In this document: in pieces, positions 10,490 through 54,353 of the stretch
Position numbering within the stretch: position 1 is the first letter of the stretch
Layout of the letters: every line of letters starts with the position of its first letter
DNA from: Lysinibacillus sp. B2A1
GTDB taxonomy: Bacteria; Bacillota; Bacilli; Bacillales_A; Planococcaceae
Assembly: GCA_002973635.1 (NCBI GenBank)
Contig: CP027224.1
Location: forward strand, 4,288,501 to 4,352,500
Direction: 5' to 3'
Length of the DNA stretch: 64,000 bases
The notes under the pieces: model-generated
What the model was told of the DNA's origin: nothing
What the model saw: only the letters and a program-made list of their open reading frames with translations
The model's database searches: none
Program-made: the position numbers and the translations under genes

Positions 10490-11360
10490 CATAGTGTTGA
10501 AAAACTAAATAGTCAAGGGACTCTTTGTGAATATTTAGTCAAAATGAAGGTGATTTCCGTTCCAGGCTACTCGCTTTGTCGCTGACGCTTCGCTTTCGCG
10601 CAGAGCAAGGCTTCCTGTGGGCGAGCGACGAGCCGCTTCCTGCGCTGGAGGAACGAAGGCTAAGTGCGTCACGTCCTGTGACAATGCCTTCGTGACCAAC
10701 ATCGTGTTGGCCTCAGGGTCTCGTCTGTCTCGCTATCCCACGGGAGTCGAGTAGCCTTGCACTCCAATCAGCAATAGTGTAGAACTTTAAATATTTTCTT
10801 CCCTCAAAAAGTAAAGTAAAAGCATGTTACTCACCATCATTAAATGGATAGAATAGTGGTACAATTCTACATCTGTTAACCTACGTTTTATGCGTAAAAC
10901 AAACTACTTTGTAACTTTACATAAAGTACTCCTCTGTTTTCACATAGAAAAATGTTATCAAAGCTCCATTTTTGCACAATATAGTGATGGCTAAGACTTC
11001 AAATTTATCACTATACATTTGTGTGAAATGCTAGAAGAAAATACTATGTGCAGTGGTTGATTGGAGTGTAGACTGAGTGACTCCTCGGGGATTCAGCGTC
11101 ACAGATGAGACCCTGGAGCGAGCATATTAGGGAACGAAGGCTAAAAGCATCACGTCCTGTGATAACGCCTTCGTGACCAACCTCCTGTTGCCCCAAGCGG
11201 CTCATCGGACGCCCCCAGGAAGCTCTGCTCTGCGCGAAAGCGAAGCGTCAGCGGCAAAGCACTCAGTCGGAACGGAAATCAACCTCTCGTTTTGAAAAAG
11301 GGCTATACTTTTTAATTTGTCACCTTGATTTCATTGACATAATAGTATTTCAACAACATG
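10490..11360. mobile_element. Family B non-coding element, copy 1 (871 bp)
   Basis: Three parts are visible. A left arm (10549-10770) and a right arm (11058-11284) are inverted copies of one repeat running from TGATTTCCGTTCC to CACTCCAATCA. Each arm is closed by its own 9-bp stem (GGCTACTCG/CGAGTAGCC; GACTGAGTG/CACTCAGTC). An AT-rich core of 287 bp (10771-11057) lies between them and is about 95% identical to copy 2. An ACTAAATA/TATTTAGT hairpin sits near the left end. Outer ends CATAGTGTTG and CAACAACATG are imperfect inverted repeats. There is no convincing ORF. It is flanked by 30-bp direct repeats that are the patB terminator. Confidence 0.8.
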
Positions 11361-23085: not shown

Positions 23086-23679
23086 TTAGATATATCCGTT
23101 TGAAGTTAAAATTTCTGTAAGTTGGTCAACACATTCCTCAATGCAATAATGCTCTGTATCTAAAATAATCTCGGGATTTTCCGGCTCTTCATAGGGCGCA
23201 CTAATCCCTGTAAAGTTTGGAATTTCAGCATTGCGTGCTTTCTTATAAAGTCCCTTTGGATCACGCTGTTCACATGTTTCTACAGAGCATCTCACATAGA
23301 CTTCTATAAATTCTCCCTCCTCTACGAGCGCTCGTACAACTTGACGATCCTCTCTATACGGAGATATAAAAGCTGTTAAAACAATTTGACCATTTTCCAC
23401 AAAGAGCTTCGAAACTTCGCCAATGCGTCGAATATTTTCCTTTCGTCCTGCTTCATCAAATCCTAAATCCTTATTCAAGCCATGACGAACATTATCACCA
23501 TCCAGGACAAAGGCTTGATTACAACGGTCAAAAAGTCGACGTGCGAAGGCATTTGCTACAGAAGATTTTCCAGAGGCAGATAAGCCCGTGAACCATAAAA
23601 TAAAGCTTTGATGCTTGTTTTGTGTGCGACGCTCCTCTTTCGTAATGGAAGCTTCATGCCAAACAATATTGGAACTCAT
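23086..23679 (-). CDS. cysC: Adenylylsulfate (APS) kinase
   Basis: Phosphorylates APS to PAPS with ATP in the cytosol. It has 197 residues, the normal length. The P-loop is [15 protein letters not shown] (about 32-39), then [16 protein letters not shown] and the FISPYREDR and [17 protein letters not shown] segments. The start codon sits in an ATGA overlap with the end of sat, so the two activation enzymes are coupled. A second APS/PAPS pathway gene, cysH, begins the same cluster. Confidence 0.96.
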
Positions 23680-24815
23680 TTTAAAACCTCCTTACGCATG
23701 CCTTTAATCAGAACATCCACTACCTCTTTACGACTAAACGTATTTGGTGGCACTTCACCATTACGTAGCATTTCACGAACCTTTGTACCCGATAAAATCA
23801 CATGTGCTGTACTATCATGCGGACACGTTTTAGTTGTTGCCATCCCCTCACAATTGTTGCAATAGAAGCTATGCTCAAATTTTAGTGGAACTATACCTAA
23901 TTCATCTTCCGTAAATTGTTCAAATATTTTTTGTGCATCATATGTGCCATAGTAATCACCAACACCTGCATGATCACGCCCAACGATAAAGTGCGTACAG
24001 CCATAATTTTTCCTTACAAGTGCATGGAAGATGGCTTCTTTTGGTCCTGCATAGCGCATGGCAGCTGGGAACACGCCCAATTGCACACGATTTTCTGGAT
24101 AATAATTTTGCAGTAAAACTTCGTAACTTTCCATGCGAATTGCCGCTGACACATCGTCTGATTTTGTTTCCCCGACAAGTGGGTTCAAAAATAGTCCATC
24201 AATCGTTTCTAATGCAGCCTTTTGAATATATTCATGTGCTCGATGCACAGGGTTACGTGTTTGGAAACCGACAATCGTTTTCCAGCCTTTGTCTGCAAAC
24301 AACTGACGCGTCTCAATCGGATCAAAGGAATACGCAGGAAACTTTTGTTCAATGCGTTTAGTTAATGTAATTTTACCACCCACATAAATACTTGGGCGTT
24401 CATGCAGTTTCTTCACACCGGGATGCTCTAAATCCTCTGTGCCATATACTAGTAACGCCTCTTTTCTTTTATTGGGCTCATAAATATCAGCCACCTCAAT
24501 CACACCATAAACTTCATTAGCATAAACCAGCTTTGCCTCATCTCCAGGCTGTAAAGTTATTGCAACTTCCTTTGTTACTGGTAGTGTAATCGGAATACTC
24601 CATACCGCACCAGATGCTAGACGTGTATGTTCCACAACAGATTCATAATCTTCCTTGATTAAAAATCCTTCAATTGGACTGTAACCACCTATTGCAATTA
24701 GCTCCAAATCACTTAGAGAAATGACATCAAGCTCTATTGCTTTATTTATATTCGTCACATCTTTCTCAGGATTAAAAGCTTGCACTAATTGGCCGCCATG
24801 TGGTTGTAAACTCAT
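23676..24815 (-). CDS. sat: Sulfate adenylyltransferase (ATP sulfurylase)
   Basis: Makes APS from sulfate and ATP. It has 379 residues, as in B. subtilis Sat. Active-site motifs are present: [14 protein letters not shown] (the QTRN and HRAH segments) and [19 protein letters not shown], with GRDHAGVG. A cysteine cluster near the end ([16 protein letters not shown]) is typical of bacterial homodimeric forms. The ATG at 24815 follows aggagg. The gene is separated from cysP by a 41-bp tandem-repeat array of about 590 bp that lies in the presumed operon path. Confidence 0.96.
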
Positions 24816-24882
24816 AAAAAACTCCTCCTAATTTTATAAAAATACTATGTTATATAGTTTTATTGGGTAGTGATTTAGGTAT

Positions 24883-25470
24883 TTGATAAAGCTTCTGTTA
24901 TTTTTATCAGGTTTTGTCCTGTTTTGATCGGCTTCTTGTATTTTTGATCAGGTACCACTCCGTTTTGATCGGCTTCTCGTATTTTTGATCAGGCACCACT
25001 CTGTTTTGATCAGCTTCTCGTATTTTTGATCAGGTCTCACCCTGTTTTGATCGGCTTCTTGTATTTTTGATCAGGTACCACTCTGTTTTGATCGGCTTCT
25101 TGTATTTTTGATCAGGTACCACTCCGTTTTGATCAGCTTCTCGTATTTTTGATCAGGCACCACTCTGTTTTGATCAGCTTCTTGTATTTTGATCAGGTCA
25201 CACCCTGTTTTGATCGGCTTCTTGTATTTTTGATCAGGTCTCACCCTGTTTTGATCAGCTTCTCAGATTTTTGATCAGGTACCACTCTGTTTTGATCGGC
25301 TTCTCAGATTTTTGATCAGGTCTCACCCTGTTTTGATCAGCTTCTCAGATTTTTGATCAGGTACCACCCTGTTTCGATCAGCTTCTCGTATTTTGATCAG
25401 GCACCACTCTGTTTTGATCAGCTTCCTCTCTTATTTAATCAAGTACCACTCATCTTTAATCAGCTACCCT
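24883..25470. repeat. 41-bp tandem repeat array between cysP and sat
   Basis: About 12 near-perfect head-to-tail units of 41 bp (a few of 40) plus degenerate ends. Each unit reads roughly GTTTTGATCRGCTTCTYG, TATTTTTGATCAGG, then a variable 7-base block (TACCACT, CACCACT or TCTCACC). Two GATC tetramers, mostly in TGATCA or TGATCGG contexts, recur per unit. The order of variable blocks shows larger-scale duplication (units 5-7 repeat 1-3). Since 41 is not a multiple of three, and no spacer is unique, it is neither coding nor CRISPR. The flanking stretch to 25508 shows only decayed copies. Confidence 0.9.
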
Positions 25471-25508
25471 CCATTCCAATCGATCCCCCATCTTTTTGCC
25501 ACACCTAT

Positions 25509-26573
25509 TTAGATACCCTCCCCAGAGTCGTATATGGAACGTTCCTCTTCTCGCATTGTTCGCATTAAGCTTATGACACCTAGCGTTCCAACTATAATGC
25601 TTCCAATTAAAACGATGGCGTAGAGATCTTTCTCCAAGAATAGCTGCACTAAAAAATAAGAAATGGCTAACGAAAATATTGGGGATACAATCCAAATTCG
25701 AATGATTTTTCTAACAATTTGCTTATGCAAAATTTGTTTTCCGTTTTTCGCCATCCCCATGCCGATAATCGAAGAGGAAGTTACTTGTGTTAATGGTACT
25801 GGAAGCCCAAAAATAGAGCTAATACCAACAAGTAATGCACCTGTGCTGGAAATTAAAATACCTTCTGTTTTCTCGAAACGAACAATCTTCTTCCCATTTG
25901 TTTCGAGTACTCGTTTTCCAAGTAGAATGGCACCAAGCGCTACAAATGCCCCACCAAGCCAGATTCCACTTGTCACACTCATCATCCCTGCACCCACTAG
26001 TGGTCCAACTGCATTCGCTACATTATTCATCCCCGCTGAAAATGCTTCAAAAAATCCAGCTAGTACAAGGAGAATCGTTAATATCGGTCGATCCTTTAGC
26101 AAGCCCTTAATACGTAATTTATACAGCCACTTCCCAAAGACTAATGCAATGACAAATGCAATAATCGGAACAATCACCCAAAATGACATGATAACAAGCA
26201 ATGATTTTACATAAAGCACCTTATAAGCTATCCCTACACCTACAACAGCTCCTACTGTTACTTCACTTGTTGATAACGGGATACCTAAAAGATTTGCCAG
26301 AAAGAGCGAGCTTGTTGCAGAAATCAAAATAATAATAACAACCTTTACAGTGATGTACTCTTGTGGCATAATGCCTGAGCTAATCGTTTTTACTACCTCT
26401 CCACCACCAAGTACCGCCCCACTAAAAACACCTAAGGCGCAAATCAGCAAGGCTTGCCAGGCTTTGGGAATCGCCCCTGCACCGTAAGCAACTCCCATTG
26501 AAGCCGCTGCTCCACTAGCACCTATATTTAATGCAAAAAATAGACTAATCGCTATCGCAACATATTCAAGCAT
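25509..26573 (-). CDS. cysP: CysP-type sulfate permease (PiT family)
   Basis: A 354-residue membrane protein with about ten helices, in the inorganic phosphate transporter (PiT) fold. The signatures are GASGAAASMGVAYGAGAIPKA near the N-terminus and AFSAGMNNVANAVGPLVGAG mid-protein. B. subtilis CysP, a sulfate permease of this family, sits in the same cysH-cysP-sat-cysC order, so sulfate is the best assignment over phosphate. The ATG at 26573 follows aaaggag, 12 bases after cysH. Confidence 0.9.
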   Translation of the reverse strand: MLEYVAIAISLFFALNIGASGAAASMGVAYGAGAIPKAWQALLICALGVFSGAVLGGGEVVKTISSGIMPQEYITVKVVIIILISATSSLFLANLLGIPLSTSEVTVGAVVGVGIAYKVLYVKSLLVIMSFWVIVPIIAFVIALVFGKWLYKLRIKGLLKDRPILTILLVLAGFFEAFSAGMNNVANAVGPLVGAGMMSVTSGIWLGGAFVALGAILLGKRVLETNGKKIVRFEKTEGILISSTGALLVGISSIFGLPVPLTQVTSSSIIGMGMAKNGKQILHKQIVRKIIRIWIVSPIFSLAISYFLVQLFLEKDLYAIVLIGSIIVGTLGVISLMRTMREEERSIYDSGEGI

Positions 26574-26585
26574 GGCAAAGCTCCT

Positions 26586-27287
26586 TTATTCATGTAAACC
26601 ACACTCAGTTTTACCAGATCCTTGCCATCTACCTGAACGTAAATCATCCATCGTAAAGGCTGGCTTTGTGCAATGCTCACAGCCAATGCTTGGATAACCT
26701 GTGTCGTGCAGAGGATTATAAGGCAAATTATGCTTTGAAACATATCGCCAAACGTCCTTCCATGTCCAATGAATGAGTGGACAAATTTTAATTGATTTAA
26801 ATTTATCATCGAGATTGATAAAATTTGTGTTTTGACGAGTTGGCGATTGTTCACGACGCAAGCCTGAAATCCAAGCTTTTGCACCTGCTAATGATTGATG
26901 TAACGGTGTTATCTTTCGAATTTCACAGCATTTATTTGGATTAGACTTCCATAACTCTTCACCGTATTGCGCTGCTTGCTGTGCTAACGTAAGCGCTGGC
27001 TTTTTCATAATAATGTTTAACTGCGGATATTTCTCTTTCACTCGATCGATAGTTTCATAAGTTTCTTTAAAATGAACATCTGTATCTAAAAAAATAATGG
27101 TAGCGTCAGGCTTCACCTTTGAAATTAAATCGATTAAGACAATTCCCTCAATTCCAAAGCTACAAGCATAAACGATATCCTCTCCATACTCCGCATAACT
27201 CCACTGTAAAACCTCCAGCGCAGCCTTATAGGTTTCATCAATCTTAAAATCCAATGTTGGCTCATGCCAAGTTGCAAATGTTAACAT
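26586..27287 (-). CDS. cysH: APS/PAPS reductase
   Basis: Reduces phosphoadenylyl- or adenylylsulfate to sulfite with thioredoxin. It has 233 residues. Seen: [13 protein letters not shown] (nucleotide loop), TDVHFKETY, the cysteine pairs KCCEIRK and GCEHCTKP that bind a 4Fe-4S cluster, and the C-terminal catalytic KTECGLHE. The cluster cysteines point to the APS-using (or dual) type, as in Bacillus. The ATG at 27287 follows gggggat. Its leader carries a terminator shared in design with sbp and sumT. Confidence 0.95.
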
Positions 27288-27305: not shown

Positions 27306-27478
27306 AAAAAAGACGCTCTAACAAAAGACATAGATATAACATGCCTCATTGCTAAAACGCCTCTAGTTTGACTAGCCAGCTCTTATATGATGATTGTTTA
27401 CTAGTATTTGCTACCTTGTTCACAATCATTTTTCTTATTACCAAATATATACTAAATTACACCTAGCAGTCAACTAGG
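27306..27478 (-). promoter_or_regulatory. cysH promoter, operator-like palindrome and sulfur attenuator leader
   Basis: Minus strand: a CCTAG-N7-CTAGG palindrome (27478-27462) centred on the -35 TTGACT (27473-27468), an 18-bp spacer and TATATT (27449-27444). The leader has a stem ATGATTGT (27429-27422) with ACAATCAT (27397-27390). It then reads GCTGG, CTAG-TCAAA-CTAG, AGGC (27380-27359). AGGC opens a 12-bp terminator stem (27362-27351 with 27322-27311, G-U pairs) followed by T6, 18 bases before the cysH start. Transcription should therefore be attenuated. Confidence 0.75.
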
Positions 27479-27633: not shown

Positions 27634-27777
27634 TTCCTTGTTGACTAATAGGAAATATATGTTTAATGTATAACTAAGATTTGAACCAAACCAATAAAAA
27701 TGCTGATCAGAGGATCTGAAGGCCATCTACTTAGAACGAAATATTCCCGTTCTAAGAGATGGTCTTTTGCGTTTTTT
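27634..27777 (+). promoter_or_regulatory. sbp promoter and sulfur attenuator leader
   Basis: TTCCT-N11-AGGAA (27634-27654) surrounds the -35 TTGACT (27641-27646). A 17-bp spacer leads to TAATGT (27664-27669). The leader motif is GCTGA, TCAG-AGGAT-CTGA, AGGC (27702-27723). AGGC starts a terminator: AGGCCATCT (27720-27728) with AGATGGTCT (27757-27765), inner stem CTTAGAACG / CGTTCTAAG, then TTTTGCGTTTTTT. Same layout as the cysH and sumT leaders, but the small stem is TCAG/CTGA instead of CTAG/CTAG, a compensatory change. Confidence 0.8.
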
Positions 27778-27800: not shown

Positions 27801-28853
27801 ATGAAAAAAAGAAAACATCTTTTCCAATCATTAGCACTTATATCCGTGCTGACATTGACCTTAACAGGCTGTGGAACTAAATCATCTAATAGTGATACTG
27901 GTGCTTCAGATACCAAAAAATCTGTGGAATTATTTAATGTATCCTATGACCCTACACGAGAGCTATACGATGAATTCAATCAGGATTTTATAAAGAAATG
28001 GAAGGATGAAACAGGTCAAGAGGTGACTATTAAGCAATCTCATGGTGGTTCTGGAAAGCAAGGGCGAGCTGTTATTGATGGACTAGAGGCTGATGTTGTT
28101 ACCTTAGCCTTAGCCTACGATATTGATGAGATTGCACAGGCTCGGGATTTACTAAACAATGATTGGCAAACGGAATTTGAAAACAATTCCACTCCTTATA
28201 CATCTACTATTGTCTTTTTAGTACGCAAGGGCAATCCAAAGGGCATTAAGGACTGGAATGACTTAATTAAGAAAGATGTATCCGTTATTACGCCAAACCC
28301 AAAAACGTCTGGTGGTGCTCGTTGGAATTATTTAGCTGCTTGGTCCTATGCAGGGAAATTATATAACAACGATGAAACAAAAATAAAAGAATTTATGAAT
28401 ACTTTATATAGCAATGTGGAGGTGTTAGATTCAGGTGCTCGTGGCGCTACAACAACCTTTGTTGAGCGTGAAATTGGAGATGTTCTAATTGCATGGGAGA
28501 ATGAAGCCTATTTATCCCTTAATGAACTAGGAGATGATGAATTTGAAATTGTCACACCTTCTTTAAGTATTTTAGCAGAGCCTCCTGTAGCAATTGTTGA
28601 CAAGATAGTTGATAAAAAAGGAACACGCGTAGTAGCAGAAGCTTATCTAAAGCATTTATATAGTGATGCTGGGCAAGAAATTGCTGCAAAAAACTACTAT
28701 CGACCACGTAATGAAGAAATTCTAGCAAAATATCAAGACCAATTCCCACAACTTGAGCTTGTTTCCATCGATGATTTTGGAGGCTGGGCTGAAGCACAAG
28801 CAAAACATTTTAAAGATGATGGTACATTTGACGAAATTTATGTACCTCAATAA
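27801..28853 (+). CDS. sbp: Sulfate-binding lipoprotein of ABC transporter
   Basis: The extracellular sulfate/thiosulfate receptor of the ABC importer, 350 residues. A lipoprotein signal ([17 protein letters not shown]) puts the acylated cysteine near residue 24. Family motifs include [61 protein letters not shown] and [13 protein letters not shown]. The ATG follows aaaggag. It heads an operon with cysT, cysW and cysA and is controlled by the attenuator leader upstream. Confidence 0.95.
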
Positions 28854-28864
28854 GGAGTCCAGTT

Positions 28865-29695
28865 ATGACAAGTTTAACGGTTAATAAAAAACGTCGCATC
28901 ATTCCAGGCTTTCATCTTTCACTTGGTTACACCATGCTCTATGTTAGCTTGCTAGTTTTATTGCCACTTTCTATGATTCTTATTCATACACTGTCCTTAA
29001 GCTGGGCAGAGTTTGTTGATATTGTGACCGCTCCTAGGGCTGTTGCTTCTTATAAAGTAAGCTTCAGCACAGCGCTCGCTGCTGGTTTATTGAATGTCGT
29101 TTTTGGCACAATCATTGCTTGGGTGCTTGTGCGTTACCAATTTCCCTTTAAACGCATCATTGATGGGCTTGTTGATTTACCGTTCGCATTACCAACTGCT
29201 GTAGCAGGAATAGCCTTAACGTCACTTTATGCACCCAATGGCTGGATAGGTCAATTCTTCAGCTTCAAAATTGCATTTACACCGCTTGGTATTATTATCG
29301 CCCTAACGTTTATCGGGCTGCCGTTTGTCGTACGTACAGTGCAACCTGTTTTACAGAATATTAGCGCAGAGGTCGAGGAGGCCTCTGCAAGTCTTGGTGC
29401 AACACGCTTACAAACCTTCGGAAAAGTCATTTTACCAGAGCTGGCTCCTGCCATTTTGACAGGCTTTTCACTAGCTTTTGCACGAGCACTAGGAGAGTAC
29501 GGTTCCGTTGTTTTTATCGCTGGAAATATGCCGATGAAAACCGAAATTACACCATTAATTATTATGACAAAGTTAGAACAATATGATTATGCTGGTGCTA
29601 CAGCCATTGCATTAGTCATGCTCATTACATCGTTCATACTATTATTCAGCATAAATATCATACAATGGCTAGCAAATCGTCGCTTTGTACAGTAG
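28865..29695 (+). CDS. cysT: Sulfate ABC transporter permease CysT
   Basis: A 276-residue permease with six helices. The EAA loop that contacts the ATPase reads EVEEASASLGATRLQTFGKVILPEL (about 176-200). DLPFALPTAVAGIALTSLY is typical of the CysT/CysU family. The ATG follows aaggag, 12 bases after sbp. Pairs with CysW. Confidence 0.95.
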   Translation: MTSLTVNKKRRIIPGFHLSLGYTMLYVSLLVLLPLSMILIHTLSLSWAEFVDIVTAPRAVASYKVSFSTALAAGLLNVVFGTIIAWVLVRYQFPFKRIIDGLVDLPFALPTAVAGIALTSLYAPNGWIGQFFSFKIAFTPLGIIIALTFIGLPFVVRTVQPVLQNISAEVEEASASLGATRLQTFGKVILPELAPAILTGFSLAFARALGEYGSVVFIAGNMPMKTEITPLIIMTKLEQYDYAGATAIALVMLITSFILLFSINIIQWLANRRFVQ

Positions 29696-29704
29696 GAGGT
29701 ATAT

Positions 29705-30580
29705 ATGGATCAATCTACAGTTATTCAACAAGCTGCTCCTGAAAAAAATAAAGCCCTAGCAAAGTCTTCAGCCTTACAAGAACCTCGCTTTGTCCGTTAT
29801 ACATTGACATTTATTGCGCTAGTATTTTTAGGATTTTTTATTGTTTTGCCACTAGTATCTATTTTCATCACTGCCTTTCAAAAAGGTGTAGACGTGTATA
29901 TGGCAGCTATTACACATCCAGATGCCTTAGCGGCTATCAAGTTAACTTTAACAGTTGTTGTAATTGCCGTTCCATTAAACGCAATTTTTGGTATTATGGC
30001 TGCCTGGGCGCTAACAAAATTTAATTTTAAAGGGAAAAATTTATTACTAACAATTGTCGACCTTCCTTTTGCTGTATCCCCTGTTATTGCGGGCTTAATA
30101 TTTATCTTGTTATTTGGTTCACAGGGTCTATTTGGCGATTGGCTCTTTGAAAATGATATTAAAATTGTTTTTGCGCTTCCTGGGATTGTTCTTGCTACCA
30201 TTTTTGTTACATTGCCCTTTGTTGCAAGGGAACTCATTCCTCTTATGCAAACACAAGGGACCTCTGAGGAGGAGGCTTCCATATCACTAGGAGCAAGCGG
30301 CTTTAAAACATTTTGGCATGTGACATTACCAAATATTAAATGGGGCTTATTATACGGGCTTATTCTTTGTAATGCTCGAGCAATAGGTGAATTTGGTGCT
30401 GTTTCTGTTGTTTCGGGTCATATACGAGGTATGACAAATACAATGCCCCTTCATATTGAAATTTTATATAATGAATATCAATTTGCAGCAGCCTTTGCCG
30501 TTGCTTCGCTTATGAGTGTTATTGCCATCATTACACTTATTGTGAAAGATATTATAGCTTGGAAATCAAAATCTGTTTAA
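29705..30580 (+). CDS. cysW: Sulfate ABC transporter permease CysW
   Basis: The second permease, 291 residues with six helices. The EAA loop is [25 protein letters not shown], and the family segment is [40 protein letters not shown] near the end is typical of CysW. The ATG follows aggaggt, 9 bases after cysT. Confidence 0.95.
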
Positions 30581-30596
30581 AGGAGACATTGCCACT

Positions 30597-31667
30597 ATGA
30601 GCATTCAAATAAAAAACGTTTCAAAAAATTTCGGTTCCTTTCAAGCTTTACAGAATATTTCCCTCCATATTCAATCTGGTGAACTCATTGCCCTTCTTGG
30701 CCCATCTGGTTCAGGGAAAACCTCTTTACTACGTGTAATTGCTGGTCTGGAAACCTCTGATGTCGGTGAAATCTTATTTGACGACCAAGCGATTACAGAC
30801 CGTCATCCAAAGGAACGAAATGTAGGCTTTGTATTCCAGCATTATGCCCTTTTTCGACATATGACTGTATTTGATAATGTTGCCTATGGTCTTAAAGTAC
30901 GTCCTCGTAAAACAAGGCCCTCCAAATCAGAAATTAAAGACAAAGTGATGGAGCTATTACGACTTGTTAAACTAGAAAATTTCGCTGAGCGTTTTCCAAC
31001 ACAGCTCTCAGGAGGGCAACGTCAGCGTGTGGCACTAGCTAGAGCACTTGCTGTGGAGCCAAAGGTGCTTTTATTAGATGAGCCTTTTGGTGCACTTGAT
31101 GCTAAAGTGAGAAAAGAGCTACGCAGATGGTTACGAAAACTTCATGATGATTTCCACATTACAAGTATATTTGTTACACATGATCAAGAGGAGGCACTGG
31201 ATGTAGCGGATCGCATCGTTGTGATGAACAATGGTCAAATCGAGCAAATTGGTAGTCCAGATGAGGTTTATACAAACCCTAAAAGCCCATTTGTTTACGA
31301 TTTTTTAGGCAATGTAAATATTTTCAAAGGACGCTTACATAATGGTAAATTAACACATGGTGAATTTGCTATTGATGTACCTGACTCACATGCGCACACT
31401 CAGGATGATGCTATAGGCTACGTTCGTCCACATGATATTCAAATTGAAAAAACCGCTGTTACAGGTACAGTACCTGTCAAAATAAGTCATATTCATTTGC
31501 TTGGTCCAATCGTACAAATTGAGTTACGCCGTGAGGATATCGGTGAATTTCTAGAAGCCGAATTATCAAAAGAACAATTTCTTTCCCTAGAACTTAAAAT
31601 CGGTGATCAAGTATATGTAAAACCAAAGCAACTAAAAGTCTTTATCCCTGAAGATTTCTCCATCTAA
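30597..31667 (+). CDS. cysA: Sulfate ABC transporter ATP-binding protein
   Basis: The energising ATPase, 356 residues. Walker A is [12 protein letters not shown], the signature [15 protein letters not shown], Walker [13 protein letters not shown], and the H-loop [11 protein letters not shown]. The C-terminal domain (about 240-356) has a TOBE-like regulatory fold ([21 protein letters not shown]). The ATG follows aaaggag. It is last in the sbp operon and a terminator follows. Confidence 0.95.
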
Positions 31668-31935: not shown

Positions 31936-34737
31936 ATGAAACCAATCAAGCAAATTATGACACCGTTGTTAGCATCGATAATATTTTTATTCATGCTAAT
32001 ATCTGGGCCTATTACAAATGTATCTGCATCTACACAACCATGTGTAACCATTGGTGATCAATCAAATTCAAATTATAGCAACCTTAATCTGGGTTATTTT
32101 GATAGCCTAACTCAGACCTTTACAGCTAAACATACGACTAATTTAACCGCCCTGGATATTTATTTGCAGCATGACCTTGCGGGAAGTGAAGTATGGGTCG
32201 ATTTATTATCTCTGTCCGCAGGTGATCTATCGCCTGGAACGGTCATCGCACAGTCAAAAAGTATGATACAAGGGACTGGGTGGAGAACAATGAATTTTCC
32301 AGCATCTGTTTCGCTTGTCGCTGGACAGAAATATGCAGTCAAAGTCTATCAGGTTAGTGGAAACAATCTCGTAACCATGCTGTCTGTATCAGCAAAAGAA
32401 TATATGGACGGTATCTTTTATGTAGAAAAGGATGCTGTACGCCAGATCAGCAATCAAGAAAACATGAGATTAAGACTATATATGAGTAAAGGAGATCCTA
32501 GCAGGGCTACAACCAATTTAAGCAGCTTAACTATGAATGACAATGTACTCCGTTCAGAAAGGGATCCAGACAACTTAAAGTATTTAGTCATCACTCTTCC
32601 AAGTGCATCTTCTTTTACGCTGACACCAACATTAGAGACCCCCGCAGATTCATATTTGGAGATTAACGGAAGTTCAGGAATCAGCGGAATCCCTTATACG
32701 ATATCCGTGAATGAGGGGCTAAACAATATTGATTTCACTGTTATAAAAGGAGATTGTACCGAAAAGAAAACATATACAGTCAATGTCGTAAAGGATACGA
32801 TAGCACCTACAATTACGGGCACAATTACACCTCAACCAAACGCAACCGGATGGAACAACAGTGATGTAACTGTACGCTGGACTGTAAATGATAGTGCTTC
32901 TGGAATTGATCCTATGACAATACCTAGTGATCAAATTCTAATCGCTGAAGGTGACAGTCTACAAGTGACGGGAACTGTGAAAGACAAGGCCGGAAATAGT
33001 GCGACTGAAACTGTAAGAATTAAAATTGATCGTTCACCTCCAACCATAATTGGAGAGGCAACAATACCCCCTAACTCTGCTGGTTGGTACAATGGGGATG
33101 TAATTATAGGCTGGACAGTCTCTGATGCACTTTCAGGAATTGATCCATCTACTTCACCGAACAATAACGTTATTACTGGAGAAGGTGACAATTTATTTGT
33201 GACGACAAGCGTGAGCGATAATGCTGGAAACAGCACAAATGAAACGGTGAGTGGGATTAAGATTGATCGCACTACACCAGTGACGACAATAGCACCGCCT
33301 GTCCTTTTGTCAAACGGAACTACGAGGCTAACACTAACTGCAACTGACACCCTGTCTGGAGTGAAGGAGACTTTCTACCAGATAGATAATGGTAATGTAG
33401 AAACTGGGAATATTGTTGACTTTCAAACAGATGGAACTTTTGTATTAATGGCTTGGAGCGAAGACAATGCGGGTAACGTGGAGCAGGCACAAAGTATTCA
33501 GGTGGAAGTGGATCAGACCGCACCTAACTTTATACAAAATTATCCTAGGTTAGGGATAATCGGAGAGACTACTGCTGATTTGCTTCTAAAAACAAATGAA
33601 CCAGGTCATGTATACTACACGGCTCTCTCTAACGGAACAGCTCCAACTGCTACACAGGTTAAGGCAGGAACAGATGCATCAGGATATTTACTCTCTGCCA
33701 ACCTGCAAGGAAGTATTGCTACGGCAGGCAATAAAGAAGAAAAAATTAGCCTGTCAGGACTGCAAAAATCAACGAAATACACTATTTATTTAGTAACGGA
33801 AGATCAAAAGAGTAACCTTATGCAAAACGTCAAAGCTCTATCGTTCACAACATCTACTCCACCATCAACTAATAGCTATACGGTATCCTTCGAATCAAAC
33901 GGTGGAAGTATTGTAACCGATCAAAGTGTTTTGTATAACACAACTTTAAAAGAACCAGTAACTATAAAAGAGGGTTATACATTCGGAGGATGGTACAAAG
34001 ATGCAGCTTTTACAAATGCTTGGGATTTTACAAAAGATGTCGTAACGGAACGGATAATTTTGTACGCAAAATGGATTATGAACAGTACTTCTGGTGGTGG
34101 TTATATTCCGATTCCTGAGCCAGATCTAAGACCAATACCAGTTGAACCACCAAAAACGGAACAACCTGTCCCAACACTTGAAGAACCTGAAGAACCTGAA
34201 AAACCTGAAAAAATGACACCAACTTACCGCTTCACTGATATTTCTAACAGTTGGGCAAGGGATATGATTGAGGACATTGCAGGCCGTAGTATTATCACTG
34301 GTTATCCAGATGGCACGTTCCGACCAAATGAATCAATAAAACGACAACATATTGCAGTTATGTTGGCACGTGCATTTGAGCTAACAACTAAACGTGAAGC
34401 TATGCCATTTAGTGATGTACCCCAAAACCATCCATACTATGATTCTATAACGAAACTCCAACAAGCTGGTATCGTAGATGGATCAAACGGTGCATTTAAT
34501 CCAAACGCACCGATGACACGTGCTCAAATGGCAAAGATTCTCGTACTTGCATTTGGTTTAACACCTGAAGGAACAAGTACATTCCACGATGTTCCTGCCA
34601 CGCATTGGAGCTATGACTATATATCCGCACTCGCCGATTCTGGTATAGCATTAGGCGATAATGGTAACTTCAAACCCAATGAACCAGTGACACGAGCACA
34701 ATTCGTGGCATTTATGTATCGGGCACTGAACCTATAA
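31936..34737 (+). CDS. SLH-anchored multidomain surface protein
   Basis: A 933-residue secreted protein with a signal peptide (MTPLLASIIFLFMLISGP, cleavage near VSA/ST). The order is an N-terminal beta-sandwich-like region (about 33-185), a cadherin-like domain (about 193-290), two tandem Ig-like repeats (each with an SGIDP motif and a ...VKDKAGNS or VSDNAGNS end, about 290-450), further beta domains, and an InlB/Flg_new-type repeat (ESNGGSIVTDQ...GYTFGGWYKD, about 650-715). A Pro/Glu-rich linker leads to three SLH repeats (about 770-933). SLH repeats bind pyruvylated wall polymer, so it belongs to the S-layer surface. The ligand is unknown. Confidence 0.9.
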   Translation: MKPIKQIMTPLLASIIFLFMLISGPITNVSASTQPCVTIGDQSNSNYSNLNLGYFDSLTQTFTAKHTTNLTALDIYLQHDLAGSEVWVDLLSLSAGDLSPGTVIAQSKSMIQGTGWRTMNFPASVSLVAGQKYAVKVYQVSGNNLVTMLSVSAKEYMDGIFYVEKDAVRQISNQENMRLRLYMSKGDPSRATTNLSSLTMNDNVLRSERDPDNLKYLVITLPSASSFTLTPTLETPADSYLEINGSSGISGIPYTISVNEGLNNIDFTVIKGDCTEKKTYTVNVVKDTIAPTITGTITPQPNATGWNNSDVTVRWTVNDSASGIDPMTIPSDQILIAEGDSLQVTGTVKDKAGNSATETVRIKIDRSPPTIIGEATIPPNSAGWYNGDVIIGWTVSDALSGIDPSTSPNNNVITGEGDNLFVTTSVSDNAGNSTNETVSGIKIDRTTPVTTIAPPVLLSNGTTRLTLTATDTLSGVKETFYQIDNGNVETGNIVDFQTDGTFVLMAWSEDNAGNVEQAQSIQVEVDQTAPNFIQNYPRLGIIGETTADLLLKTNEPGHVYYTALSNGTAPTATQVKAGTDASGYLLSANLQGSIATAGNKEEKISLSGLQKSTKYTIYLVTEDQKSNLMQNVKALSFTTSTPPSTNSYTVSFESNGGSIVTDQSVLYNTTLKEPVTIKEGYTFGGWYKDAAFTNAWDFTKDVVTERIILYAKWIMNSTSGGGYIPIPEPDLRPIPVEPPKTEQPVPTLEEPEEPEKPEKMTPTYRFTDISNSWARDMIEDIAGRSIITGYPDGTFRPNESIKRQHIAVMLARAFELTTKREAMPFSDVPQNHPYYDSITKLQQAGIVDGSNGAFNPNAPMTRAQMAKILVLAFGLTPEGTSTFHDVPATHWSYDYISALADSGIALGDNGNFKPNEPVTRAQFVAFMYRALNL

Positions 34738-34801: not shown

Positions 34802-36523
34802 CTATTGATGATGAAACTCTCTTCCATCATAGACTGCTGTTACATAGCCAGCCCGAATAACAAAATCTCCAAAATGCTCTCCCTCTAAACGATCCTTGGC
34901 AAAATGCAGAAGAATTGGACGTAGCTCTGCTAAAATTTCCTCTTCACCAATATTTTCACGATATATTTTATTAAGACGATTTCCTATAAAGCTTGCACCT
35001 AGATACATATTGTACTTTCCTGGTCCTTTACCGATAAAGCCAATTTCAGCCATAGCAGCTCGCGAACAACCATTAGGACAGCCAGACATCCGAATAACGA
35101 TTTCCGTTTCGTTTAAGCCGGCCTCATCAATGATTGTTTCAATTTTTGTAATTAGGGAAGGCAAGTAACGCTCCGCTTCAGCCATCGCTAACCCGCATGT
35201 TGGTAACGACACACAAGCAATAGAATTACGTCGTAAAGCAGAATAATGCGCACCATCTGTTAGCTTGTATTCTTCAATAAGAGTTGCAATCTTTTTCTTC
35301 TTTTGTGGAGTAACATTGCCAATCATTAAATTTTGGTTTGGCGTTAAGCGGAAATCACCTGTGTGTACCTTCGCAATTTCTCTTAGCCCTGTTAGCAGTT
35401 GGTAATCTTCAAAATCCTTAATACGACCATTTTGAATAAATAGCGTATAATGCCATTTCCCCTCTGCTCCTTTAATCCAGCCAAACTCATCACCTGTACG
35501 ATCGAATGTATATGGACGTGCTTCTTGAATATCCCAGCCTAGACGACGTGTTAGCTCCTCATTAAACCATTCAAGCCCTCTAGCATCAATTGTATATTTA
35601 AAGCGAGCATTTTTACGTACGGAACGATTGCCATAATCGCGTTGAATCGTAATGATTTTTTCTGCTGTTTCCAGTAATTTATCAGGTGTGATAAAGCCTA
35701 TAACCCGAGCAAGCTGTGGGTAAGTTTCATGATCACCATGCGTCATGCCCATTCCACCACCTACTGCAACGTTAAAGCCAATTAACTGCCCCTCCTCAAC
35801 TATCGCAATTAATCCAATATCTTGTGAAAATACATCCACATCATTGCTTGGTGGAACAGCTATACCAATCTTAAATTTACGTGGTAAATACAATGAACCA
35901 TAAATAGGTTCAATTTCTTCCTCTTGACTGTCCACTACCTTTTCACCATCTAGCCATAGCTCATGATATGCTCGTGTTCTAGGAAGTAAATGCTCGCTTA
36001 ACTTTGCGGACCAATTGTAAATTTCCTCATGCAATGCTGATTGATTTGGATTGACATTACACATAACATTACGGTTTACATCCCCACAGGCAGCAAGTGA
36101 ATCCAATAAAACATCGTTAATTTCCTGCATATATTTTTTGACATTCCATTTTAAAATTCCATGTACCTGGAACGCCTGGCGAGTTGTTAATTTTAAGGAA
36201 CCATTTCCATACTTTCTTGCCATTTCATCCATTACTAACCATTGAGCCGGTGTAGCTGCTCCACCTGGTGTACGTACGCGCACCATAAATTGATAAGCGG
36301 GCTCTAGCTTTTGACGCTGCCGTTCATTACGTAGATCACGGTCATCTTGTAAATAACTACCATGAAATTTCATCAGTCGATTATCATCCTCTGGAATTCC
36401 TGAACTTAATGGATTATTCATCGTACGTTCAAGTGTTCCACGCAGATAATTACTTTCACTTTTTATACGCTCTACATCACTAGGATTTCCTTGTTGTGGA
36501 GGTAAAATAATTTTTCCTGTCAT
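34802..36523 (-). CDS. cysI: Sulfite reductase hemoprotein beta subunit
   Basis: Reduces sulfite to sulfide with six electrons from CysJ. It has 573 residues, the family length. Siroheme/4Fe-4S ligands are [19 protein letters not shown] and [16 protein letters not shown] (C-x5-C and C-x3-C). Substrate-binding residues appear in [15 protein letters not shown] and [11 protein letters not shown]. The ATG at 36523 follows aaaggagag, 17 bases after cysJ. The active site needs the siroheme whose synthesis is encoded upstream by sumT and sirB. Confidence 0.96.
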
Positions 36524-36540: not shown

Positions 36541-38328
36541 TTAATAAACGTCACGTTGATAGCGATTCTGTTGTTTTAGTTCATTGACAAAGGCTTTCGC
36601 TTCCTCTGGCGTTTTTTGTCCTTGTTGCTCTATCAGACGATGTATTGTGGCATCGACATCTGCCGCCATCGCTTTTTCATCGCCACATACATAAATAACA
36701 GCCCCTTGCTCCAACCATTCATAAAAGGTCGCTGCATTTTCCTCAATTTTATGTTGCACATAGATTTTTTTATCAGTATCTCGTGAGAAGGCTACATCCA
36801 TTTGAGTTAGTGTGTTAGAGGCAAGCCAACGCTGCCAATCGGTTTGATAAAGGAAATCTGTCACAAAATGCTGATCACCAAAGATTAACCATGCCTTTCC
36901 TTCAATCCCCAGTTCCTCACGCTCTTCTAAAAATGCACGATATGGGGCCACACCTGTACCCGCACCTATCATAATAATTGGTGTGTCCTGTTGCTCTGGT
37001 AATCTAAAATTAGGATTTTTATGCACATATATTGGTAATGTATCACCAATTTGAATACGCTCTGCAACGCTACCAGAGCAAACGCCAAGTCGTTGACGTC
37101 CATTTGTCTCATAGCTTACTTTCCCAATAGTTAAGTGCACCTCATCATTATTTGCCTTTTGACTACTAGCAATGGAATAAAGTCGTGCTGGAATTTTTCG
37201 TAACAACTCTACAAATTGCTGTGCATTCCATGAAAATGGTGCAAAGTCTTGAGCGACATCAAGCAAATCTCTACCCTTTGCATAGTCCTTCCAGTCGTTA
37301 GCATCTTCTACTAACTTTGTAAATTCCTTATGCACTGTATAGGCACCAATCTTTTGTAATAATGGCTTGGATAGCACTGTTATTTCTAGCTTCTTTTGCA
37401 ATGCTTCCCTTATCAATAATTTCTCATCAAATACGTTTACCTCAGCTTGTGGATCAAACTGTAGTGCTGTTAATAAAGCATCGACTAATTTTTCGTCGTT
37501 TTCTGGCAAAATACCGATGCTATCTCCAGGCTCAAAATTAAAATTTGTACCCTCAATTGATAATTCAACATGACGTGTCTCTTTATTGGAGCCCCTGCCA
37601 TTTAAATTAATGCTTTCTAGTACTTCAGCAAAAAAAGGATTTTTTCGAGAATATGTAGACTCTCCCTGTACTATCTGATTTGGTTCCTCTAATGTAGCAG
37701 TTACATCAGCCTGCTGCAGGAGCTCCTTCTGAACAGCTGTGAACCATTGTGCTGCAGCATCATCATAATCCACATCACAATCTGTACGAGGAATGATGCG
37801 AGAGGCCCCCAAATTAGCAAATTGCTCATCGAAATCTTTCCCTGTTTTACAGAAAAATTCATAGGAGCTATCCCCTAAAGCTAGTACCGAATAGTGTAAA
37901 TTCTCTAGTTTTGGAGCGCGCTTACTATGCAAAAATTCATAGAACTGTATGGCTTGATCAGGTGGATCCCCTTCACCATGTGTACTGACAATGAGTAAAA
38001 GATTTGTAAGCTTTTTTAAATTATTAGGCTTAAATTTTGCTAATGATGAAACCGTCACATCTACATCATTGCTTTTCAATGCGGACGCATATTTTTCAGC
38101 TAGACCCTGACTGTTGCCTGTTTGTGAACCATATAAAATCGTCACTGTTTTAGTAATTGGTGTTACCGTTGACGCTACTTCCTCAGCTATAGTATTGATT
38201 GTTGCTAGCGGTGCACTTAAATACCCGTTTAGCCAAATTCTCTGCTCTCCAGTTAGTTTAGGGAGCAGCTCATTCAATAACTTTACCTGCTCCTCATTAA
38301 ATGGACTATTTATTACTTGCAGTTTCAA
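36541..38328 (-). CDS. cysJ: Sulfite reductase flavoprotein alpha subunit
   Basis: Passes electrons from NADPH through FAD and FMN to CysI, 595 residues. Flavodoxin domain at about 60-205 ([28 protein letters not shown]), FAD domain at about 235-450 ([19 protein letters not shown]), and NADPH domain at the end ([28 protein letters not shown]). I place the start at the TTG at 38328, 6 bases from gaggtgg, which aligns with the B. subtilis CysJ start. A GTG at 38343 precedes that site. Confidence 0.95.
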
Positions 38329-38379
38329 TTCTTGCCACCTCACGTATTAGTATCATTTCTGTTCTTTTTTCATTGAGTC

Positions 38380-38421: not shown

Positions 38422-38616
38422 TCAATTATGCCTCAGCATAATTGCGTCCGGAATCGGCTTTGTGCTTGCACAAAGAAATCCTTTCTGATTCCGTGACATC
38501 TGCCAGAGGCTTTAACTTCTTTCAGTAGGTGTTTGGACATTCACTGAAAAGCAACCTAAACCCGCATTCATCTCACCACCTATAGAGGTGGGAGACTTCT
38601 GCTGAAAGAAGTTAAA
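38422..38616 (-). repeat. Structured repeat family A, copy 1
   Basis: Minus-strand order: a long stem CTGAAAGAAGTTAA/TTAACTTCTTTCAG (arms 38602-38615 and 38512-38525) holding a CCACCT/AGGTGG hairpin (38576-38591). Then comes a linker complementary to CCGTGACATCTGCC. Next is a GGAATC/GATTCC stem (38450-38492) enclosing CTTTGTGC/GCACAAAG, and last a hairpin AATTATGC/GCATAATT (38424-38443). It begins right after the yezD stop and separates sumT-sirB-yezD from cysJI. Copy 2 keeps the same layout with different stem sequences. Confidence 0.75.
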
Positions 38617-38766
38617 TTATCGAAGTCTTATTTTTTCCTTTTTTTCAATTTGGACCACATAGGAATTTTGGATAATTAAAGTAATTGATCCATGACTCAC
38701 AGTATTTAAAATTTGACGGACATTATCTAATGCTAGATTTACATTTTCAGTCCTTTTATCTACCAT
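38617..38766 (-). CDS. yezD: YezD family (DUF2292) small protein
   Basis: Forty-nine residues, MVDKRTENVNLALDNVRQIL then NTVSHGSITLIIQNSYVVQI, ending EKKEKIRLR. This matches the short YezD/DUF2292 proteins found with sulfur genes in Bacillales, whose function is unknown. The ATG at 38766 overlaps the sirB stop (ATGGTAG), so it is translationally coupled. An aaggaaggtg site is present upstream. Its stop is within 3 bases of the first stem of structured repeat copy 1. Confidence 0.85.
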   Translation of the reverse strand: MVDKRTENVNLALDNVRQILNTVSHGSITLIIQNSYVVQIEKKEKIRLR

Positions 38767-39506
38767 GACAGAACACCTTCCTTATGACATGCTAATAATT
38801 CGACAATACGTTCCACTAAAACTTTCCTTACATTATGGTCGTAGCCTAAACTTTCACATAATGTGATGTTACGATTCTCATATTCTTGCAATCGCTTTGT
38901 TATACTTTGTCGAAGAATTCCTGTAAACAATAAATACGGCACGATAAATACTGGATCAACCTCATTTTTCTTTTGCTGTAGCCACTCTTCAAAAGTTGGA
39001 CCTATTCCATACAAAAAACATGTGTCTACGGAAATGTAAGCATATTTATCACGTAGCCTTGCTGCAATTTTAGCTAGATCTCTCTTGACTGCTGAATCAC
39101 TACTCCCACGACCAATTAGTAAAACACTTGCATTGTTAGTAGGTAATTTTGTTTCTAAAATCCTAGTGTGCAGTGTGTCAATTAATAATTCATGGACACC
39201 TAGTGGTTCACCGTATGTAAATGCTACATGGGGATGCTGTTTTTTTGCTCTTTCGATTTCACTTGGAATATCCTGCTTTGCATGTTGAGCAGCTAGCAAT
39301 AAAATAGGCATGATCGCGATAGCTGTAGCCCCTCGTTTAATACAGCTATCAATCCCTTCAGCAATGGTGGGTACTGCCAATTCCAGAAAACAAATTTCTT
39401 GAATCGGTATATCAATCTCCAGTTGTACACCCTTTAGAAAAGCAATAGCTTGCTCCACACCTTCCTTTACACGGCTTCCATGTGCAATATATAAAATGGC
39501 TTGCAT
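38760..39506 (-). CDS. sirB: Sirohydrochlorin ferrochelatase
   Basis: Inserts Fe2+ into sirohydrochlorin to give siroheme. It has 248 residues in two CbiX-like halves. Metal-binding histidines appear in AILYIAHGSRVKEGVEQAIA (His near residue 9) and in ILLLAAQHAKQDIP. The second half repeats the fold (LLIGRGSSDSAVKRDL) without the histidine. The ATG at 39506 follows aaggatg, 12 bases after sumT. It supplies the cofactor of CysI. Confidence 0.92.
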   Translation of the reverse strand: MQAILYIAHGSRVKEGVEQAIAFLKGVQLEIDIPIQEICFLELAVPTIAEGIDSCIKRGATAIAIMPILLLAAQHAKQDIPSEIERAKKQHPHVAFTYGEPLGVHELLIDTLHTRILETKLPTNNASVLLIGRGSSDSAVKRDLAKIAARLRDKYAYISVDTCFLYGIGPTFEEWLQQKKNEVDPVFIVPYLLFTGILRQSITKRLQEYENRNITLCESLGYDHNVRKVLVERIVELLACHKEGVLSW

Positions 39507-39518
39507 AAATCCACATCC

Positions 39519-40295
39519 TTACACAGAATTTTTTACTAACTGTGGCTGTGGAATGCTTTGCTCAAACCATTGAATTGATTCCCTCAATGTAACAACCTTT
39601 CCCACTACAATTATGCTTGGATTTTGGATATTTTCTCGTTGTACAATCTTTTCTATAGTTGCTAAAGTACCCGTAACTGTCTTTTGTTGGGAAAGCGTTC
39701 CCCAATGTATAAGTGCTACAGGAGTTTCTTCATCACGACCATACTTAAGCAGCTGCTGACGAATATAGGGAAGATTACCAACCCCCATATAAATTGCAAT
39801 TGTATCAATTCCTTTTGCAAGACTTTCCCATTGTATGGCATCGTCTTTGCCCTCTCTCATATGACCAGTAACCATCGCAAAGCTTGAGCTTAAATCGCGA
39901 TGTGTAACTGGAATTCCTGCATAGGCTGGTGCTGCTATCCCGGAAGAAATACCGGGGACAATTTCAAATGGAATATTATGGTGTACTAGCACCTCTGCTT
40001 CCTCGGCCCCTCTGCCAAATACGAAAGGGTCACCTCCCTTTAATCTCGTCACAATTTTTCCCTGCTGTGCATAGCTGACAATTGATTGATTAATATGCTC
40101 CTGAATCATGGCATGTTGCTGAGGCAGTTTACCGCAAAAGATTAGTTGAGCTTCCTTTTTAGCATAAGCGAGCAACTCTTTATTAATCAGTCTGTCATAC
40201 AAGATGACATCCGCACATTTGATACACCTTAATCCTTTGACAGTGATCAAATCCACATCTCCAGGACCAGCACCAACTATAAAAACTTTACCCAT
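39519..40295 (-). CDS. sumT: Uroporphyrinogen-III C-methyltransferase
   Basis: Methylates uroporphyrinogen III twice with SAM to precorrin-2, the first step to siroheme. It has 258 residues. Motifs: VFIVGAGPGDVDLITVKGLR at the N-terminus, VTRLKGGDPFVFGRGAEEAE, VPGISSGIAAPAYAGIPVTH and IAIYMGVGNLP. The ATG at 40295 follows gaaggag. It lies downstream of an attenuator leader of the cysH/sbp type. The middle enzyme, precorrin-2 dehydrogenase (sirC), is absent from the window. Confidence 0.94.
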   Translation of the reverse strand: MGKVFIVGAGPGDVDLITVKGLRCIKCADVILYDRLINKELLAYAKKEAQLIFCGKLPQQHAMIQEHINQSIVSYAQQGKIVTRLKGGDPFVFGRGAEEAEVLVHHNIPFEIVPGISSGIAAPAYAGIPVTHRDLSSSFAMVTGHMREGKDDAIQWESLAKGIDTIAIYMGVGNLPYIRQQLLKYGRDEETPVALIHWGTLSQQKTVTGTLATIEKIVQRENIQNPSIIVVGKVVTLRESIQWFEQSIPQPQLVKNSV

Positions 40296-40331: not shown

Positions 40332-40463
40332 AAAAAAGGCTCATATTATCCATGGGCATAGCGATGCCTATGAACAATATGAGCCTCTAGTTTGCTAGTC
40401 AGCTACGTTTTTAATTCTTAGTAATATAATAAGAATAATAAATAATTTAGTATATTCTGTCAA
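40332..40463 (-). promoter_or_regulatory. sumT promoter and sulfur attenuator leader
   Basis: Minus strand: TTGACA (40463-40458), 17 bp, TATTAT (40440-40435). About 25 nt into the transcript comes GCTGA, CTAG-CAAA-CTAG, AGGC (40403-40383). AGGC opens an 11-bp perfect terminator stem, AGGCTCATATT (40386-40376) with AATATGAGCCT (40347-40337), an inner CAT-GGCAT/ATGCC-ATG stem, and T6 ending at 40332. It lies 36 bases before the sumT start. This is the shortest of the three leaders, so the GCTGR hairpin alone may be the sensing part. Confidence 0.8.
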
Positions 40464-53600: not shown

Positions 53601-54353
53601 ACTGTTGTTTAAAAACTAAATAGTCAAGGGTCTCTTTGTGGATATTTAGTCAAAATGAAGGTGATTTCCGTTCCAAGCTACTCGCTTTCCTGTGGGCGAG
53701 CGACGAGCCGCTTCCTGCGCTGACGCTCCGTGCAGGGTCTCGTCTGTCTCGCTATCCCACGGGAGTCGAGTAGCCTTGCACTCCAATCAGCAATAGTGTA
53801 GAACTTTAAATATTTTCTTCCCTCAAAAGAAAAGTAAAGGCATGTTACTCACCATCATTAAATGGATAAAATAGTGGTACAATTCTACAGATGTTAACCT
53901 ACATTTTATGCGTAAAACAAACTACTTTGTAACTTTACATAAAGTACTCCTCTGTTTTCACATAGAAAAATGTTATCAAAGCTCCATTTTTGCACAATAT
54001 AGTGATGGCTAAGACTTCAAATTTATCACAATATATTTGTGTGAATTGCCAGAAGAAAATACGATGAGCAAAGGTTGATTGGAGTGTAGACTGAGTGACT
54101 CCTTGGGGATTCAGCGTCACAGATGAGACCCTGGAGCGAGCATATTAGGGAACGAAGGCTAAAAGCATCACGTCCTGTGATAACGCCTTCGTGACCAACC
54201 TCCTGTTGCCCCAAGCGGCTCATCGGACGCCCCCAGGAAGCTCTGCTCTGCGCGAAAGCGAAGCGTCAGCGGCAAAGCACTCAGTCGGAACGGAAATCAA
54301 CCTCTCGTTTTGAAAAAGGGCTATACTTTTTAATTTGTCACCTTAACAACATG
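53601..54353. mobile_element. Family B non-coding element, copy 2 (753 bp)
   Basis: Same plan as 10490-11360. The left arm (53660-53789) is shorter than in copy 1 by two internal losses and keeps the GCTACTCG/CGAGTAGC ends. The core (53790-54075, 286 bp) is almost the same as copy 1, with only scattered substitutions. The right arm (54076-54303) is nearly identical over 228 bp. The right end goes straight from CACCTT to AACAACATG, without the 24-27 bases seen in copy 1. Flanks are the 28-bp duplicated yutD terminator. Short ORFs (about 61-65 codons) inside are not preserved as genes. Confidence 0.8.

Follow-up and report, generated by a model that had tools for sequence, protein, structure and literature searches.

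Sulfur Genes and Their Leaders

The window, that is, the whole stretch of 64,000 nucleotides from Lysinibacillus sp. B2A1 analysed here, carries genes for sulfur supply on both strands. A phospho-adenylylsulfate reductase is encoded by cysH (26586..27287, minus strand; TIGR00434, 324 bits), which heads the likely operon cysH-cysP-sat-cysC; the rest of this operon, whose extent is deduced from gene order and strand (23086..26573, minus strand; NCBIfam), comprises a sulfate permease gene (cysP, 25509-26573), sat (23676-24815) and an APS kinase gene (cysC, 23086-23679). The genes of a sulfate ABC transporter, sbp-cysT-cysW-cysA, occupy 27801..31667 on the plus strand (NCBIfam). On the minus strand again, sumT (39519-40295; NCBIfam) is accompanied by a sirohydrochlorin-chelatase-like (sirB-like) gene (38760-39506; NCBIfam, under the curated cut-off) and, in third position after the sumT hairpin described below, by an open reading frame (ORF) for a 49-aa protein of the DUF2292/YezD family (38617..38766; PF10055, 54 bits against a cut-off of 22; genome match G000:C1:4327123-4327230), whose nearest named relatives are Lysinibacillus proteins; downstream of it, on the same strand, lie the sulfite reductase genes cysJ (36541-38343) and cysI (34802-36523), both assigned with NCBIfam. 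Between the DUF2292 gene and cysJ, inside the sulfur gene group, there is a dispersed repeat of about 180 bp (38440-38620, minus strand), for which 46 matches, fragments among them, were found in the 5.5-Mb genome at 73-100% identity; a 933-aa protein encoded between the sulfur operons (31936-34737, plus strand) bears a partial likeness to one NEAT/leucine-rich-repeat family, far under its cut-off.

The cysH, sbp and sumT leaders have in common a hairpin of 21-22 nt, GCU-GR-NNNN-loop-NNNN-A-GGC, with the GCT-GGC pairing present in all three. Its copies are GCTGG CTAG TCAAA CTAG A GGC in the cysH leader (27359..27380, minus strand), GCTGA TCAG AGGAT CTGA A GGC in the sbp leader (27702..27723, plus strand) and GCTGA CTAG CAAA CTAG A GGC in the sumT leader (40383..40403, minus strand), scored by the covariance model R1 at 27.2, 28.4 and 30.3 bits, respectively. 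Both the sequences and these scores agree with the claim of the earlier note that GCTGR, a 4-bp stem and AGGC are shared by the three leaders, and the stem does change, as was also stated there, from CTAG/CTAG (cysH and sumT) to TCAG/CTGA (sbp) with pairing kept; the loops are of 5 nt (cysH), 5 nt (sbp) and 4 nt (sumT), a small correction to that note.

In folds of the leaders each hairpin overlaps a strong intrinsic terminator, located at 27311..27362 for cysH (minus strand; its 5' arm starts with the AGGC of the hairpin), at 27718..27767 for sbp (plus strand) and at 40335..40388 for sumT (minus strand). When the whole leader is folded the terminator wins in all three cases, at -27 to -35 kcal/mol, with AGGC inside its 5' arm; AGGC therefore doubles as the first strand of the terminator, as had been proposed, and by this overlap the antiterminator hairpin and the terminator are mutually exclusive in three leaders out of three. 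The isolated hairpins fold at about -7 kcal/mol and are barely above shuffled sequences (z from -1.1 to -1.8); since the folds alone hardly beat the shuffles, the case for the hairpin rests on comparison rather than on energy. Moreover, the hairpin being weak alone and the leader as a whole favouring the terminator, something would have to hold the hairpin if the genes are to be read through.

An assignment by Rfam had been named beforehand as a possible refutation of the shared attenuator; none of the three leaders matches any Rfam class, and a known RNA class was rejected on these grounds. The contention that the leaders do not resemble the SAM riboswitch likewise held, RF00162 having no match in them or elsewhere in the window and seven in the rest of the genome. 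A leader peptide with cysteine codons was also rejected, given that the upstream sequence is not conserved.

Recurrence and Covariation of the Hairpin

In the window, the loose pattern GCTGRN{10,16}AGGC gives 12 matches against 3.3 expected, most of them without a stem; combined with a T-run, it returns 28 rows, some duplicated, in the 5.5-Mb genome, among which a stem was seen by eye only at the three leaders, and across 101 relatives it was too noisy for use. The covariance model R1, built partly from the three window leaders, retrieves exactly these leaders at 27-30 bits, the next match in the window scoring 11.7. Weak matches of 11.7 bits fall at 10754-10772 and 53773-53791, within a few hundred bases of Bacillaceae-1 RNAs, three of which occur in the window (10644-10710, 11125-11191 and 54143-54209). 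Among plasmids, the sumT leader gave no match when used as a query.

The stricter pattern GCTGRNYAGN{3,6}CTRNAGGC has matches in 83 of 250 genomes of the family, some of those outside the main genera being unpaired chance matches, as against 21 matches in 20 of 250 genomes for the reversed control. Both stem positions left free by the pattern are Watson-Crick paired in 221 of the 227 instances that are distinct by flanking sequence, and beyond the 22 nt the flanks of these instances display only an A-rich bias. In an alignment of 78 distinct copies (A3), which includes unpaired members from patterns leaving stem positions 6/18 and 7/17 free, 99.5% of the cells are paired, a figure somewhat flattered by the selection of later variants with pairing required, so that 221/227 is the cleaner one. 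Double-sided changes occur in four of seven pairs (C-G/U-A twice, A-U/G-C and G-C/A-U), a number also reached by 13 of 500 shuffles; the compensatory double-change cells amount to 73 against 26.2 in shuffles, a value attained in none of 500, and sliding the partner abolishes the signal. Further pair types were no more frequent than in shuffles of the 78 copies (7 versus 7.8). Variants beyond the first pattern, found in loci fetched by DUF2292 (GCCGA..AGGC, YYGG/CCRR stems and ACCGA..AGGT), account for the changes seen in the basal pairs and in the A-U pair, and the third basal pair varies from U-G to C-G. What is conserved is a compact internal loop, GR/A; the terminal loop is variable, mostly of 4-5 bases (3-6 were allowed by the patterns). 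A chance origin was rejected in view of the pattern counts in the family genomes, the covariation, the gap in R1 scores and the downstream-window control described below, and the reading of the earlier note, a shared attenuator, is supported by both sequence and comparative data.

Genes Downstream of the Hairpin

Targets were collected without regard to function, from one genome per species and requiring only the hairpin and a T-run, which yielded at least 118 stretches with at least 124 hairpins; 14 of 124 hairpins were set aside (1 that lay in an ORF and 13 that had none within 400 nt), one duplicate was removed, and the 109 first downstream ORFs were compared with Pfam, family counts being given for the best 25 of 50 families. 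Among the matches listed, 38 of the 109 first ORFs encode a PAPS reductase, which bears out the enrichment upstream of sulfur genes that the earlier note had asked for; still among the matches listed, 8 encode a solute-binding protein, 7 a PALP protein, 4 a Cys/Met PLP enzyme, 4 an ABC ATPase, and 2 each an ATP-sulfurylase, a TauE protein, a rhodanese or a minor capsid protein, nitrogenase, SAM synthetase and tetrapyrrole methylase being examples of families met once. Further targets in relatives of the window genome are presumably, judging by likeness, SsuD-like, MetQ-like, arylsulfotransferase-like, RibU-like and riboflavin-kinase-like. The RibU-like and riboflavin-kinase-like genes, so named by likeness, follow the hairpin in loci L090, L093 and L096, a hint that the regulon may extend to flavin supply.

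According to record titles, the hosts among the matches listed include Fictibacillus, Neobacillus, Brevibacillus, Sporomusa, Pelosinus, Clostridium and Moorella, and we take others among them to be Bacillus licheniformis-group species and Geobacter-type bacteria. In three loci from a Geobacter-type genome and Bacillota MAGs (L193, L194 and L230) the hairpin stands before nifB-like or other nitrogenase-type genes, the order in L193 being hairpin-nifB-DUF2292-nifH (gene names by likeness).

DUF2292 Proteins as Companions of the Hairpin

In many cysH loci a short DUF2292 ORF stops a few nucleotides before the hairpin. In a single set of 398 Bacilli genomes, searched with both R1 and the Pfam DUF2292 model, the hairpin was found in 133, DUF2292 in 157, both in 130 and neither in 238; DUF2292 is thus present in 130 of 133 hairpin genomes versus 27 of 265 genomes without the hairpin (Fisher p 7e-73, kinship ignored), and by genus the counts are 64 with both, 3 with R1 only, 7 with DUF2292 only and 71 with neither. 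As to the three R1-only genomes, two have weak matches (E 3e-4 and 9e-4) and one is a Streptococcus-like genome, in which a DUF2292-like ORF adjoins a prophage hairpin. Against the association stand the 27 of 157 DUF2292 genomes without an R1 match, 9 of them in one genus (g40), a count obtained with stricter filters by which weak matches were lost. Among 33 genomes titled outside the Bacilli and picked by the hairpin pattern (34 picked by title from 80 of the at least 118 stretches, with L176, an unclassified Bacillota MAG, omitted), 31 have DUF2292; of the two without it, one has a match that is unpaired and lies inside a gene, and the other, a MAG (L233), has a paired hairpin.

The converse approach, in which 24 loci were fetched by DUF2292 alone, gave a fully Watson-Crick-paired hairpin in 12, at -25 to +260 nt relative to the stop; such a hairpin occurred in 6 of 1142 other windows taken from these loci and in 4 of 4800 shuffles. 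In the other 12 of the 24 loci no hairpin was found just downstream, which speaks against the role proposed below for DUF2292. Neither was one recognised in the five plasmid DUF2292 loci except in Niallia, two Novosphingobium plasmid loci lacking a recognisable hairpin within 3 kb, nor was one found after the DUF2292 gene in the loci L309-L311 of g32 (Bacillus-like), whose genomes have R1 matches at other places, among them one some 850 nt ahead of an SsuA-like gene. The genome of the window itself contains a second DUF2292 copy, of a different sequence type (G000:C1:4169854-4169961), after which no hairpin was found. Conversely, among the matches listed, the fetched locus, of up to 8 kb, contains no DUF2292 for 71 of 124 hairpins; such loci fit an action in trans, without proving it. 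Tandem two-domain DUF2292 proteins, encoded in L182 and in genomes G612, G617 and G632, suggest that the protein may act as a dimer; by sequence, no relative of DUF2292 with a solved structure was found.

ANTAR proteins were considered as the partner and rejected, as they do not track the hairpin: in 30 hairpin genomes an ANTAR protein is over the cut-off in 10, with one more under it, and DUF2292 is present in all 30.

Proposed Mechanism and Alternative Explanations

Computation established the structure of the RNA and the way it overlaps the terminator, the sulfur-gene targets, and the co-occurrence and adjacency of DUF2292. On this basis it is proposed that DUF2292 (YezD) binds the 22-nt hairpin and is the antiterminator of a sulfur-supply regulon, a reading which we regard as probable. 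DUF2292, probably as a dimer, would bind directly to the hairpin and hold it; the held hairpin would sequester AGGC, no terminator would form, and RNA polymerase would read into the sulfur-supply genes, while with scarce DUF2292 the terminator would prevail. The signal would presumably be sulfur starvation, DUF2292 accumulating when sulfur is scarce. The DUF2292 gene is often just before the attenuator or, as in the window, inside the controlled operon, and the system would therefore be a positive-feedback gate through which the protein amplifies its own expression.

Between the two forms of attenuator that might be envisaged, a protein-bound antiterminator is favoured over a tiny ligand-binding RNA, because the flanks are only A-rich and the presence of the hairpin tracks one small family, DUF2292; the binding itself is putative. 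That the hairpin is instead a very small riboswitch for a metabolite of sulfur hunger, for example O-acetylserine, with DUF2292 merely one of its targets, would accord with the compact conserved internal loop GR/A and with the sulfur genes downstream; a length of just 22 nt, a variable loop and flanks lacking conservation past the A-rich bias are, however, hard to reconcile with it, as is the company of DUF2292-type proteins even in phage satellites and in a nif locus, and we hold this explanation to be quite improbable. Somewhat less improbable, yet still unlikely, is that another RNA-binding protein holds the hairpin, DUF2292 being either a sulfur-starvation protein under common regulation with the targets or an accessory factor: the DUF2292 gene of the window itself lies in a controlled operon, and the 27 of 157 genomes with DUF2292 and no R1 match would be expected on such terms, but the rarity of hairpin genomes without DUF2292 would be left unexplained, and so would the DUF2292-like ORF found directly before the hairpin in Streptococcus satellites, in a context unrelated to sulfur.

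The proximity of the two elements could also mean that the DUF2292 ORF is a cis-acting leader, with the choice between hairpin and terminator made by a ribosome standing on its stop codon; indeed, the distance from stop to hairpin is between -18 and +12 nt in 71 of 94 cases (twice-fetched loci counted twice). This explanation appears the least credible, and very improbable in absolute terms, since 81 of 124 hairpins, among the matches listed, have no DUF2292 ORF just upstream, the three window leaders have none either, and the protein sequence of DUF2292 is conserved over phyla.

Were the binding of the hairpin by DUF2292 true, a function would be provided for DUF2292/YezD, the switching of sulfur genes would be explained in many Bacillota whose cysH has this hairpin instead of a SAM riboswitch, and the few known antitermination systems would gain a very compact pair of protein and RNA. 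It would also offer a molecular idea for the sulfur-starvation phenotype of OscA, which we take to be a DUF2292 protein, and, in its wider form, for the timing of genes in phage satellites.

Relation to Known Systems

In the BglG/SacY/LicT systems, a CAT-domain protein holds a RAT RNA hairpin, which overlaps a terminator in its 5' arm; the RAT is an RNA antiterminator of about 30 nt with two asymmetric internal loops, and the gene for a BglG-type regulator often opens the operon that it controls. The arrangement proposed here is similar in that a protein-held hairpin would share bases with the terminator's 5' arm, but the hairpin is of 21-22 nt with a single internal loop, GR/A, and the proposed partner is DUF2292, of about 50 aa; the Rfam family bglG-cis-reg reaches 14.9 bits versus the 80 required, on the sumT terminator. 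ANTAR proteins recognise paired stem-loops with six-base loops; ANTAR antitermination also sets a small hairpin against a terminator at several scattered targets, whereas here the hairpin is single, mostly with a 4-5 base loop, and without a conserved flank. The pyr genes of B. subtilis offer a likeness in layout, the gene for PyrR, a small RNA-binding regulator, lying directly before an attenuator that it controls, just as the gene for the candidate regulator DUF2292 may be followed at once by the attenuator; PyrR, however, promotes termination and DUF2292 is proposed to be an antiterminator. Finally, cysH of B. subtilis carries an S-box (SAM riboswitch) acting by transcription attenuation, so that the same gene is attenuated in both cases, in the window without a SAM riboswitch in the cysH leader.

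In the accessible portions of two reports on Pseudomonas corrugata, OscA is described as a small protein encoded with sbp, and oscA-sbp as strongly overexpressed after chromate, an effect tied to sulfate starvation; no RNA target for OscA is proposed in those portions (PMC2996968, PMC3596284). An attenuator predicted in bacilli and common to a sulfonate ABC transporter operon and another gene (Naville and Gautheret 2010; PMC2965389) is presented in the available excerpt without a motif, a regulon or a protein partner, unlike the element described here, and may be the same element. The open-licence literature, as far as its accessible text extends, contains no recognisable description of this hairpin or of an RNA target for DUF2292, and no function for DUF2292/YezD; of the two papers that use the word DUF2292, one has it just as a name in an expression list. 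As a mechanism this belongs to a known kind; what appears to be new is the RNA element, together with the role of the protein.

Phages, Satellites and XtrA

A wider reading can be entertained tentatively, with somewhat less than even confidence: DUF2292/YezD and the phage XtrA-like proteins may form one family of RNA-binding antiterminators of about 50-60 residues, each with its own hairpin, which in bacteria would gate sulfur genes and some nitrogenase genes, and in phages and satellites would place a time-delay gate in front of later genes, xtrA of PBSX-type prophages among them. The data that widen the pairing from sulfur genes to phage and XtrA pairs are suggestive only. In viral contigs, 12 of 17 hairpin matches follow a DUF2292/XtrA-like ORF, with the stop -45 to +5 nt away (judged by eye); as for the remaining five, a single unpaired match is common to two, one falls at the end of its contig, and L350 and L357 are paired hairpins not preceded by such an ORF. 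A DUF2292/XtrA-like ORF was found by tblastn in 63 Streptococcus satellite-phage records. Six of these loci were fetched (L366-L371): the canonical hairpin is present in two, ACUGA CUGG AAAAA CCAG A GGU in two, and no hairpin was recognised in two. Where present (4/6 loci), the hairpin-terminator unit comes after the ORF, and both lie downstream of replication or helicase-loader genes.

As regards the proteins, one of four satellite-phage sequences passes the Pfam DUF2292 cut-off of 22 (26.1 bits), the others scoring 14.4-19.8, and all four match PBSX_XtrA under its cut-off; DUF2292 and the phage alignment give a profile match of 92.8% probability over 27 columns. At XtrA loci of other Bacilli a different hairpin, GTCCNAGACGGAAAGCCTGNGGAC (GTCC..GGAC), follows xtrA in 7 of 19 (L372-L375, L377, L389 and L390), 4-27 nt past the stop and likewise overlapping a terminator, and is absent from 12 of 19. 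In viral contigs (loci from L430) there are at least 121 GTCC..GGAC hairpins; a T-run occurs within 80 nt in 119 of the 121 listed, and an ORF matching the XtrA profile within 90 nt in 52 of these 121.
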